Of a stretch of 64,000 bases of DNA, positions 39,918 to 42,889 are shown piece by piece. The notes beneath the pieces are model-generated. The model did no database searches. It worked only from the letters and a program-made list of their open reading frames with translations, and was not told the origin of the DNA. Within the stretch, counting starts at the first letter, position 1, and the number at the start of each line of letters is the position of its first letter. A program made the position numbers and the translations under genes. The DNA is from Thalassospiraceae bacterium LMO-SO8 (GTDB lineage: Bacteria > Pseudomonadota > Alphaproteobacteria > Rhodospirillales > Casp-alpha2). The stretch is from contig CP134226.1 of NCBI GenBank assembly GCA_031655335.1, positions 682,001-746,000 on the forward strand, in the 5' to 3' direction.

Positions 39918-40056
39918 GGCCCGCGGTCGGGCTTTGCGGCGATCCCTTAACGGCGCCTGCCCCCGCCCTTGAAAACGCAAGAAACCGTTGCGCCCCCCGC
40001 GCCGGGAGGCTAACAAATTATGGGGTGTGTCGAAGCAGCCGACGGGGCGCGATTAC

Positions 40057-41001
40057 ATGGATAAGGGCCGAGGCTCAGGCCAAAACGAAGACGGCACGGA
40101 CGATACGCCGTCCGCCGCCACGGCCGGGTCCCAGACCCCGGCCCGGGCCGTCGACATTTTCCGCCCCGACGCGCAGACCGCCCCCGTGGTCTTCGCCTCG
40201 CCCCATTCGGGCCGCGACTATTCGCCCGCGTTCGTCGAACAATCCTGTTTGGACGCGACGGCGCTGCGCCGCTCGGAAGATGCCTTCGTCGACCAATTGT
40301 TCCGCCGCGCCCCCGATTTCGGCGCCCCCTTGATTCGCGCCAATTTCCCGCGCGCCTATGTGGACGCCAACCGCGAGGCTTACGAATTGGACCCCCGCAT
40401 GTTCTCAGGGGCCCTGCCCGATTATGTGGTGACCCGCTCGCCGCGCATCGCGGCGGGGCTCGGCACCATCGCCCGCGTGGTCGCCAACGGCGAGGAAATC
40501 TACGGCCACCCCCTGACCTTCGCCGAGGCCCGCCGACGCATCGAGGCCACCCACCGGCCCTATCACAGGGCGCTCATGGGCCTGATCGACGACACCCGCC
40601 AGGCCTTCGGCGGCTGCCTTTTGGTCGATTGCCATTCCATGCCGTCCAACGTGACCGGCACGCGCAGCGACCATCCCCTGGGCGACATCATCCTGGGCGA
40701 TTGCCACGGCACCGCCGCCGCCCCGGCCATGACGGCCCTGGCGGAACGGCTGCTCAAGGAACTGGGCTTTTCCGTGACCCGCAACCGGCCCTACGCCGGC
40801 GGCTACACCACACGCCACTACGGCCGTCCCCGGGCGGGCATCCATGTCCTGCAGATCGAGATCAACCGCGCCCTCTACCTGGACGAGGCGGCGATCGCCC
40901 CCCTGCCGGAAATGGCCGAAATCACGGCCCGGCTCGACGATTTCATGGCCCAGCTGTGCGCCGGGGCGCGGCGGCTGGTCCTGCCGGAAGCGGCCGAATA
41001 A
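40057..41001 (+). CDS. N-formylglutamate amidohydrolase family protein
   Basis: The 314-residue protein matches the FGase pattern: FASPHSGRDY near residue 45 (metal-binding His), RAPDFGAPLIRANFPRAYVDANR (in parts, FPRAYVDANR), LLVDCHSMPS near 190 and GIHVLQIEINRALY near 270. It cleaves N-formyl-L-glutamate to formate and glutamate, the last step of one histidine degradation route, but no hut genes are near. The start is uncertain (ATG 40057, GTG 40027). A GGGAGG site upstream instead fits a 14-codon frame at 40020-40064 whose stop overlaps this ATG. Confidence 0.86.
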   Translation: MDKGRGSGQNEDGTDDTPSAATAGSQTPARAVDIFRPDAQTAPVVFASPHSGRDYSPAFVEQSCLDATALRRSEDAFVDQLFRRAPDFGAPLIRANFPRAYVDANREAYELDPRMFSGALPDYVVTRSPRIAAGLGTIARVVANGEEIYGHPLTFAEARRRIEATHRPYHRALMGLIDDTRQAFGGCLLVDCHSMPSNVTGTRSDHPLGDIILGDCHGTAAAPAMTALAERLLKELGFSVTRNRPYAGGYTTRHYGRPRAGIHVLQIEINRALYLDEAAIAPLPEMAEITARLDDFMAQLCAGARRLVLPEAAE

Positions 41002-41026
41002 CCCCGCCCCCAGAGCACATCCCGCC

Positions 41027-41566
41027 ATGACCGCATCCGACACCATCCAGATCCGCGACGCCGCCGAGGCCGACATGGCGGCGATCCGCGACATCTATGC
41101 CCATCACGTGGCGACCGGCGGCGGCAGCTTCGAATACGATCCGCCCGATGTCGCCGAGATGGTCCGCCGCCGCGCCGCCGTGGTCGACGCCGGATACCCC
41201 TATATCCTGGCCGAAGATGCGGGCCGCATCCTGGGATACGCCTATGCCGGGGCCTACCGGCCGCGCCGGGCCTATCGTTATACGGTGGAGGATTCGGTCT
41301 ATGTCGCCCAGGACGCCCATCGCCGCGGCGTCGGCCGGAAACTGCTGGCGGAACTGATTCGGCGCTGCACCGCCGACGGCTACCGGCAGATGATCGCGGT
41401 GATCGGCGATTCCGGAAATGCCGGGTCCATTAGTTTGCACCGCAAAATGGGCTTCCGCGAGGTCGGGATCATCCGTAACGTCGGATTCAAGTTCGGGCGC
41501 TGGCTCGACTCGGTGACCATGCAGTTGGCTCTCGGCGAGGGCGGGGACTCTCTGCCCGAAAATTAA
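41027..41566 (+). CDS. GNAT acetyltransferase, phosphinothricin acetyltransferase-like
   Basis: The 179-residue protein has the Pat-type layout: IRDAAEADMAAIRDIYAHHV at the start, YRYTVEDSVYVAQDAHRRGVGRKLL with the acetyl-CoA loop RRGVGRK (near 101-107), and SISLHRKMGFREVG. Pat-like enzymes acetylate methionine sulfoximine, phosphinothricin or related amino compounds with acetyl-CoA. It begins 25 bases after the amidohydrolase gene and is probably co-transcribed. Natural substrate unknown. Confidence 0.87.
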   Translation: MTASDTIQIRDAAEADMAAIRDIYAHHVATGGGSFEYDPPDVAEMVRRRAAVVDAGYPYILAEDAGRILGYAYAGAYRPRRAYRYTVEDSVYVAQDAHRRGVGRKLLAELIRRCTADGYRQMIAVIGDSGNAGSISLHRKMGFREVGIIRNVGFKFGRWLDSVTMQLALGEGGDSLPEN

Positions 41567-41615
41567 CCAACTGATTTTGTTGCCATTTTCTCATTAAAGG
41601 GCAATCGCGGCGAAC

Positions 41616-41723
41616 AAAAAAAAGGGCCGTGTCAGAGACACGGCCCGAGTCGTTGGGAGGAAACATCCAAGTAAAGGCAGGTGCGGAAGACCGTCTGGGA
41701 GGATCCGTCTCCCGCATGCTGCG
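41616..41723 (-). ncRNA. Candidate small RNA with anti-Shine-Dalgarno motifs
   Basis: A minus-strand promoter (TTGCAC-N17-TATATA) leads into about 108 bases without a credible gene that end in a strong intrinsic terminator: a perfect 10-bp stem GGGCCGTGTC/GACACGGCCC and eight T. Near the 5' end GCGGGAGAC pairs with GTCTTCCGC, and the loop shows ATCCTCCC; a second CCTCCC lies unpaired before the terminator. Exposed CCUCCC motifs occur in several alphaproteobacterial regulatory RNAs that block ribosome binding. The element lies in the 351-bp gap 41567-41917, which holds no protein gene. Expression is not shown. Confidence 0.65.
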
Positions 41724-41729
41724 TTGCAA

Positions 41730-41758
41730 TATATACGTGGCTTTGTTCGCAGGTGCAA
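41730..41758 (-). promoter_or_regulatory. Promoter of the candidate small RNA
   Basis: On the minus strand TTGCAC (41758-41753) is exactly 17 bp from TATATA (41735-41730). Transcription is predicted to start near 41723. Confidence 0.6.
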
Positions 41759-41837
41759 ACAAAAAAATACCGCTCCCGGCATTTTTTTCGCCCCGGCAAA
41801 TGCCGCCGCCCGGGCGGACATACCCCGACCCAACAAC

Positions 41838-41861
41838 ATCCTGTTTTTACAGGATAATTTT
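41838..41861 (+). terminator. Plus-strand intrinsic terminator
   Basis: ATCCTGT pairs with ACAGGAT across TTTT and is followed by AATTTTTT. It may end read-through from the acetyltransferase gene or attenuate the transglycosylase transcript. Another inverted repeat, CGGCATTT/AAATGCCG, lies at 41777-41805. Confidence 0.6.
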
Positions 41862-41917
41862 TTGCCCGTTCCTGGCGCAGCCCTTGCAACGCCTTGGCTT
41901 AGAACGGGAGAATAACC

Positions 41918-42889
41918 ATGGCGTGGCAAACGCGCTTGTTCCTTTGCTGGCTTCTGGCCGGGGCTCTTGGATGGGCCCCGGATGCTCTGGCCGCGCGCGG
42001 ACAAGCACTTGAAAACACAGATGAAATCTGCCTGGAGGCGGCGCGCGCCGTGGAACGGCGCGAGGGCATTCCGGCCAACCTGCTGGCCGCCATCGCGCTG
42101 ACCGAGTCGGGCCGCTTCGATAAGGAAAGCGGGGAAAATTTTGCCTGGCCCTGGACCGTGACGTCCCAGGGCAAGGGCCGGTACTTCGCGACCGAGGCGG
42201 AAGCCCGCGCCGAGGTCGAGATCCTGTTGAGCCAGGGCGTGCGCAACATCGACGTCGGCTGCATGCAGATCAACATGCATTACCACTGGAACGCCTTCGA
42301 AACCCTGGACCACGCCTTCGATCCGGCCGCCAACGCGGCCTATGCGGCGAAGTTCCTGAAGGCCAAATATGACGAGACCCGCAACTGGCTGACCGCCGCG
42401 GGCCAGTACCATTCCCAGACGCCGGAGAATTTCCGCCCCTACCGCATCAAGGTGCTGAGCTATTGGAATCGGCTGAACCGGGGCGACGACGAGACCCGGC
42501 AGGCCAAGAAGGACGCCGGGACGGACGCGGACGACTCCCGCGAGACCACCCTGGTCGCCGTCGACACCGGCCGCACGGCGCGCCTCAATGGTCTGCTCAA
42601 GGAAAAACGCCGGAACGAACGCCAGGACATGCAGGCATTGGGCGACACCGACCGGCGGCGCAGTCATCTCGACGAGTGGCGTTATCAGAAACGCCGCGGC
42701 GTGCACCTGGAAGCCGTGGTCGCCCAGCGCATCGCCGAGATGGAGGTGCGGCGCGAGGAAAAGATGCGCGACCTGGACCGCGCGACCCGCGACTTCACCT
42801 TCGCCGAAAAGCGCCGCGACCAGCTTGACCGCTGGCGGCGGACCGGCAACCTGGTCGGCGATACGCCGCAGATAACGGTCGAACGCTGA
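41918..42889 (+). CDS. Soluble lytic transglycosylase-like protein (SLT domain)
   Basis: The 323-residue protein has a signal peptide (LFLCWLLAGALGWAPDALA), an SLT domain with the catalytic Glu in AIALTESGRF (near 63) and NIDVGCMQINMHYHW, and a long charged helical C-terminal part (about 190-310) that probably forms a coiled coil. The enzyme would cut peptidoglycan strands in the periplasm. The C-terminal coil is unlike classic Slt70 and may serve as a docking part for a secretion or envelope machine. It starts at ATG 41918; no strong ribosome site apart from GGGAG. Confidence 0.85.
   Translation: MAWQTRLFLCWLLAGALGWAPDALAARGQALENTDEICLEAARAVERREGIPANLLAAIALTESGRFDKESGENFAWPWTVTSQGKGRYFATEAEARAEVEILLSQGVRNIDVGCMQINMHYHWNAFETLDHAFDPAANAAYAAKFLKAKYDETRNWLTAAGQYHSQTPENFRPYRIKVLSYWNRLNRGDDETRQAKKDAGTDADDSRETTLVAVDTGRTARLNGLLKEKRRNERQDMQALGDTDRRRSHLDEWRYQKRRGVHLEAVVAQRIAEMEVRREEKMRDLDRATRDFTFAEKRRDQLDRWRRTGNLVGDTPQITVER

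Follow-up and report, generated by a model that had tools for sequence, protein, structure and literature searches.

The window analysed here, a 64,000-nucleotide stretch of Thalassospiraceae bacterium LMO-SO8 (contig CP134226.1, positions 682,001 to 746,000), contains a gap of 351 bp at 41567-41917, the extent given in the preliminary description of this DNA. On the plus strand to its left lie an N-formylglutamate amidohydrolase (FGase) gene (39988-41001; PF05013, E 2.6e-74), whose true start may be downstream of 39988, and a GNAT acetyltransferase ORF (40844-41566; PF13420, E 3.3e-18), whose true start is probably later because the domain begins at residue 70. To the right, an SLT transglycosylase gene begins at 41918. 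Upstream of this gene, at 41873-41888 on the plus strand, is what we take from its consensus to be a sigma-54-type -24/-12 promoter; its TGGC and TTGC are kept in all eight genomes of the genus, and the full TGGCACG-N4-TTGC in five of the eight.

The minus strand of the gap carries the promoter that had been described, which can be read directly in the sequence as a -35 element TTGCAC (41753-41758) and a -10 element TATATA (41730-41735) separated by a 17-bp spacer. A generic consensus scan of the locus called 0 promoters. The match to consensus is thus weak, and support for the promoter comes from its conservation in the genus: the -35 element is the same in seven of the eight genomes (TTGCGT in G004), and the alignment shows TATAT, as well as a TTTGC...TGCGAA block over the -35 element, to be invariant in all eight. 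This block forms part of a dyad, GTTTGCACCTGCGAAC (41745-41760, minus strand), a candidate element whose half-sites resemble the PhaR motif discussed below with a spacing one base larger; the dyad is also found with small changes at three further loci (L023, L024 and L026). From the position of the -10 element the RNA would start near 41724-41722, and its end is placed by the T-run of an intrinsic terminator (41616-41646, minus strand), giving a predicted transcript of approximately 108 nt (41616-41724). The terminator scan located a stem at 41646-41624 with a run of eight T directly after it (41623-41616), and the perfect 10-bp stem is as previously reported. Folding of the 116-nt strand gave -47.3 kcal/mol with z = -4.43, and 0 of 200 shuffles folded equally well.

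The gap had also been called a busy regulatory region on the strength of a plus-strand terminator at 41838-41861. A terminator-like hairpin does exist there (41838-41855 in the terminator scan), but it is not conserved in the genus: two relatives (L010 and L011) have similar sequence with a poorer stem, and the other five lack such a sequence. The hairpin therefore does not bear out the view of a busy regulatory region, and a second sRNA ending at this position was rejected because of this lack of conservation.

Membership in the αR8 family

The minus strand at 41609-41685 matches the full length (positions 1-77) of the Rfam model RF00519 (suhB/MmgR, αR8) end to end, with a score of 53.5 bits against a gathering score of 41 and an E of 3.3e-8 over the window. 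All eight genomes of the genus carry the sRNA, and their alignment keeps the promoter with its -10 element, the core of the operator described below, the two CCUCCC motifs and the terminator, as the conservation check proposed in the preliminary description called for. The central proposal of a minus-strand alphaproteobacterial sRNA with anti-Shine-Dalgarno motifs is therefore upheld both by a curated sRNA family match and by conservation in the genus; the predicted RNA is a real member of the known αR8/MmgR family and not the founder of a new one. RF00519 exceeded the gathering score in 17 of 61 relatives, including all eight of the genus, in a search whose control genomes gave a single false match (Thermus) below the cut-off, and 127 of the 289 class genomes gave a match to it with an E of 1e-6 or lower. 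Neither the SorY model (RF02651, 30 bits against a gathering score of 111) nor the Betaproteobacteria toxic sRNA model (RF02278, 32.2 bits against 50) reached its gathering score.

In excerpts of PMC12559287, αR8 RNAs are defined by a 10-mer, UUUCCUCCCU, that is internal and single-stranded and follows a weak hairpin, together with a Rho-independent terminator. The window RNA has the terminator, and its UUUCCUCCCA agrees with the 10-mer at nine of ten bases; in the minimum-energy fold, a weak 3-bp GGA/UCC helix overlaps the UCC of this otherwise single-stranded motif. The same excerpts state that most species have one αR8 copy, adjoining an FGase gene. To examine this across the family we used 139 αR8 loci (8 from the genus, 22 from the family or order and 109 from the class), of which 128 had a recognisable seed and T-run (8, 18 and 102, respectively); the remaining 11 were left out of every count. 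Some matches below the gathering score are among the 18 closer loci. The 109 class loci, from 108 genomes of which one (G326) is of the window's own order, were hand-picked mostly from the top of the RF00519 listing, with a few genomes of that range passed over, and are not a random draw, and the locus statistics ignore kinship among genomes. The FGase gene of the window is convergent with the sRNA, from which the GNAT ORF separates it, and within flanks of about 1.5-1.9 kb or less a convergent downstream FGase gene was found at seven of eight genus loci, 11 of 18 family/order loci and 72 of 102 class loci. The lone miss in the genus is most likely L008, where only 340 bases of contig are present on that side. 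Based on the RF00519 match and the FGase neighbour, we take the window RNA to be a canonical αR8 orthologue.

Additional RF00519-like RNAs were seen in some genomes. The window's genome has a weak second one (L099; G000:C1:1040104-1040181, minus strand), which at 29.3 bits is below the cut-off and has CCCTCCTCCCTGAAACTC before a terminator. It aligns well with two copies from the genus (L259 and L260) among five weak second copies compared, and is possibly a sibling sRNA. Tandem αR8 copies about 230-290 bp apart occur in three genomes (G093, G221 and G319), and one locus (L159) has a repeated GGACGTTTCCTCCCT core.

A PhaR-type motif at αR8 promoters

Between the -10 element and the inferred start lies a perfect match, TGCAACGCA (41720-41728, minus strand), to the motif YGCRNYGCR, which excerpts of PMC12542648 give as the core of the palindromic site of PhaR (AniA). 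The same paper reports that in Sinorhizobium meliloti MmgR is repressed by PhaR and that PhaR binds the mmgR promoter in EMSA (section 19). Genes for PhaR and Hfq are present in the window's genome, along with three for phasins and three for PhaC that score over the cut-off, and at least one PhaR motif was found in 14 of the 14 phasin upstream regions read in five genomes of the genus. A further pattern, TTGCANYGCARCA, modelled on the sites of the sRNA and the phasins, matches the window's genome 14 times (13 places), compared to one match for the reversed pattern. One of these places is the sRNA, and others include two phasin genes and an ammonium-transporter-like gene, the latter named from its translation. 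Other PhaR-like sites in this genome were seen near a Crp/Fnr-like regulator, a TctC-like protein and an acyl-CoA-synthetase-like gene, all named by eye.

The motif recurs at αR8 loci generally. At -130..-25 relative to the seed it is present at 8 of 8 genus, 12 of 18 family/order and 70 of 102 class loci, compared to 21/165 (12.7%), 24/376 (6.4%) and 259/2725 (9.5%) of equal windows in the flanks; the shuffles for this test were single-base shuffles. The strict motif is lacking at 32 of the 102 class loci and 6 of the 18 closer ones. Within a narrower slot of -90..-40, picked after the positions of the sites had been seen, 61 of the 102 class loci have the motif. When the letters of the motif were permuted, 0 of 22,679 other arrangements reached 61, the next best (near variants) scoring 40 and the median being 1. 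When the spacer was varied, there were 61 loci for one base, 17 for two bases and at most 7 for each of six other lengths. That 61 of the 102 loci have the operator at a similar position suggests one ancestral circuit. By analogy with S. meliloti, we consider repression of this sRNA by PhaR a strong inference.

A class-wide link between PhaR and αR8 did not appear in titles and the opening parts of abstracts, a coverage that excludes key subscription papers. The abstract of Ceizel Borella 2018 reportedly describes a TGC-N3-GCA dyad that S. meliloti shares with other alphaproteobacteria in its mmgR and PHB gene promoters, and conservation of the operator at αR8 promoters may be partly in print already. 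The main text of PMC12559287, on the Caulobacter members of the family, contains no word beginning with PhaR.

The two CCUCCC motifs and their candidate targets

The 5' end of the predicted RNA folds into a hairpin (41682-41716, minus strand) that holds a CCUCCC in its loop, as had been noted, although the stem is of 10 bp rather than the 9 bp reported. Positions 41716-41707 pair with 41691-41682, leaving a 15-nt loop GGAUCCUCCCAGACG within which the minimum-energy fold places three weak inner pairs, one of them touching CCUCCC. This first CCUCCC (41697-41702) is an additional, genus-specific candidate seed. The core αR8 seed UUUCCUCCCA (41654-41663) contains the second CCUCCC (41660-41655), which had been described as unpaired; this holds for most of the motif, but its first two C lie in the 3-bp GGA/UCC helix mentioned above. 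The linker columns that end in the core seed are invariant in the genus at 26 of 26 positions.

We examined the genus alignment for covariation, using a structure of 24 pairs. All 168 of 168 cells are paired, and 5 of the 24 pairs are changed on both sides, three in the 5' helix and two in the terminator, with 100% of cells paired in each. This number was reached by 0 of 500 shuffles, and slid controls gave 0-1. One of five covariation measures, that of further pair types, does not beat the shuffles. The alignment consists of seven distinct but related rows and the structure was derived from the same alignment; together with the one null measure, this makes the covariation supportive of the structure and not proof of it.

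Since the Rfam model starts at 41685, the 5' hairpin is mostly beyond it. A 5' hairpin outside the model is common in the class: the stretch -62..-16 of class loci has a median fold z of -2.12, with 68 of 102 below -1.5, whereas control windows placed 400 nt upstream had a median of 0.09, with 11 of 102 below that limit. A z below -1.5 was found for seven of eight genus loci, and the hairpin signal is weaker in family/order relatives (8 of 18). The CCUCC motif is not common in this stretch: all 8 genus loci have it, as do none of the 18 family/order loci and 7 of the 102 class loci, the class background being 2.7% for shuffles and 4.1% for flanks. Its complement GGAGG was found in none of the genus or family/order loci and in one class locus. 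An exact search of genome contigs for the dual-motif pattern yielded 15 stretches: five from the window's genus, two from Novispirillum, three from Roseomonas, two from Acetobacteraceae MAGs, one from an unplaced MAG and two from Maritimibacter. The Maritimibacter matches (L040 and L043), in which the seed is not followed by an αR8 terminator, are likely due to chance. The Novispirillum stretches have identical spacing to the core (a 48-base match), but five of their six motif bases fold into a stem, so that the window's genus is the only one for which an exposed motif is supported.

Candidate targets were sought by complementarity. Allowing up to one mismatch, the core complement TGGGAGGAAAC occurs at 57 places in the genome (16 for the reversed control) and the loop complement CTGGGAGGATC at 24 (5 for the control); 30 of the 57 core sites and all 24 loop sites were examined by locus. 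Any ribosome-binding site is partly complementary to CCUCCC, so that this target evidence is confounded and the counts are inflated. There are five exact core matches. One is at the sRNA and three lie 12-20 nt before a long ORF: a DctP TRAP-transporter gene, a 2-hydroxyacid dehydrogenase gene at a distance of 1.4 kb from it, and an SDR oxidoreductase gene. The fifth (L199) stands before short frames only. No CrfA-like sponge was recognised among these exact matches, the three upstream of long ORFs being ribosome-binding sites, though L199 may yet be one. The best candidate is the DctP TRAP-transporter mRNA, in which TTGGGAGGAAACA, with 13 bases complementary to the core, covers the ribosome-binding site. 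The protein is found in seven of eight genus genomes, and GGGAGGAAAC is kept at six of these seven loci, including that of the window's own genome, down to 58% protein identity. The complementarity and its conservation hint that this mRNA might be a target. The neighbouring 2-hydroxyacid dehydrogenase was rejected as a second target, its site varying among relatives. Phasin mRNAs were likewise rejected as direct targets: a check confined to GGGAGG, TGGGAG and GGAGGA found at most an ordinary GGAGGA at one of the three phasins. For the loop seed, no target comparable to DctP was present among the 24 sites, and the sole exact CTGGGAGGATC outside the sRNA is not before a start codon. The sequence pattern hints at most tentatively at a function for the loop seed.

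These results bear on whether the loop motif works as a seed. A possible, though rather doubtful, alternative is that the RNA is an αR8 orthologue in which only the core seed works, the 5' CCUCCC being incidental to a hairpin whose role is structural, in protecting the RNA's 5' end. The prevalence in the class of 5' hairpins that mostly lack CCUCC is consistent with such an origin, as are the shortage of strong targets for the loop seed and the folding of most of the motif into a stem, at the same spacing, in Novispirillum. However, TCCTCCCAGAC in the loop is invariant in all eight genomes of the genus while changes in the surrounding stem are compensated, and this is so even in G004, where both stem arms have been rewritten. 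Sequence drift would be expected in a loop of purely structural function, so the invariance counts against a role in structure only. The occurrence of the motif in none of the 18 closer relatives indicates that it was probably gained and then kept.

It is very improbable that the RNA belongs to another anti-Shine-Dalgarno family, αr15 (AbcR) or αr14 (NfeR1), instead of αR8. Two anti-Shine-Dalgarno motifs in an RNA of about 108 nt do resemble AbcR1/2 and NfeR1 as presented in excerpts of PMC7143759, but the αR8 model is matched end to end, and synteny with FGase is an αR8 trait, as is the PhaR operator, an associated trait outside the Rfam definition; suhB was also the family kept by cmscan, which retains only the best of overlapping clan members, an outcome that fits αR8 better. 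Still more remote is the reading that no RNA is made and that the hairpins arose by chance or only terminate transcription of the FGase/GNAT genes: the terminator stem begins 58 bases past the GNAT stop codon and the sigma-70 consensus match is weak, but the T-run follows the stem on the minus strand only, and conservation spans the promoter, both seeds and every column of the linker. A small protein from the minus-strand ORFs at 41632-41889 and 41487-41762 (frames of 85 and 91 aa) is equally remote and was rejected, since single-base indels in the 5' hairpin and terminator loop, with pair-preserving substitutions in the stems, form the pattern of an RNA and not of a reading frame.

A model for the αR8 RNA of this genus

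The window RNA shares with MmgR of S. meliloti the Rfam family RF00519 (αr8), a PhaR-type operator in the promoter and the PHB context. MmgR is 77 nt long (PMC7143759, excerpts), whereas in the window RNA the 5' hairpin is longer and CCUCCC occurs a second time; phasin mRNAs are the output in S. meliloti, whereas the window RNA has no obvious pairing with them. With SisA-D of Caulobacter crescentus it shares the core UUUCCUCCC, the tenth place being A in the window RNA and U there, as well as the Rho-independent terminator and, for sisA, the FGase neighbour (PMC12559287, excerpts). SisA represses mRNAs, with pairing through this same core predicted or shown according to those excerpts. Caulobacter has four siblings and the CrfA sponge, whereas the window's genome has one gene over the Rfam threshold and one weak relative. 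In the excerpts of PMC7143759, AbcR1 and AbcR2 (αr15; 120 and 114 nt) have two anti-Shine-Dalgarno motifs, NfeR1 (αr14) has three, and AbcR is partially homologous to RF00519. These families differ from that of the window RNA, and the likeness is one of architecture only.

Taken as a whole, the explanation we favour, and consider probable, is that the locus encodes an αR8 sRNA that acts in trans as a PhaR-controlled repressor of mRNAs and has two seeds. The sequence, family match, synteny, conservation, covariation and operator statistics form its basis; by analogy with characterised relatives, the RNA would be transcribed, its promoter would be bound by PhaR, and its repression of mRNAs would depend on Hfq. 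Transcription would proceed from the sigma-70-type minus-strand promoter with its predicted PhaR operator between -10 and +1. In cells with no PHB, PhaR would sit on the operator and block transcription of the sRNA; once PhaR has been drawn off by PHB granules, the cell would make the sRNA and the phasins together. The product would be an RNA of about 108 nt framed by the 5' hairpin and the terminator hairpin, with two predicted anti-Shine-Dalgarno seeds, the family-wide UUUCCUCCCA in the linker and, in this genus, GAUCCUCCCAGA in the 5' loop. These seeds would pair, probably on Hfq, with the ribosome-binding sites of uptake and metabolism mRNAs, thereby repressing translation. As in its characterised relatives, many mRNAs would be expected to be repressed.

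Two aspects of the locus add interest beyond the family assignment, the PhaR operator that recurs at αR8 promoters in the class and the second seed specific to the genus. Control by PHB in S. meliloti and feast/famine control in Caulobacter are described separately in the parts of the literature consulted. A broader proposition, that αR8 forms a permanent branch of the PhaR/PHB circuit in much of the Alphaproteobacteria and that it has become a two-seed regulator in this genus through the gained loop, we regard as evenly balanced. If it is true, a storage sensor would switch on phasins and a transport-repressing sRNA together, such that uptake would be damped while granules are full. An anti-Shine-Dalgarno loop would also have been gained within a 5' hairpin that was already there, a convergence with AbcR and NfeR1 in their multi-seed layout, and the genus-specific loop motif would illustrate how an additional site for pairing may arise naturally in an sRNA.
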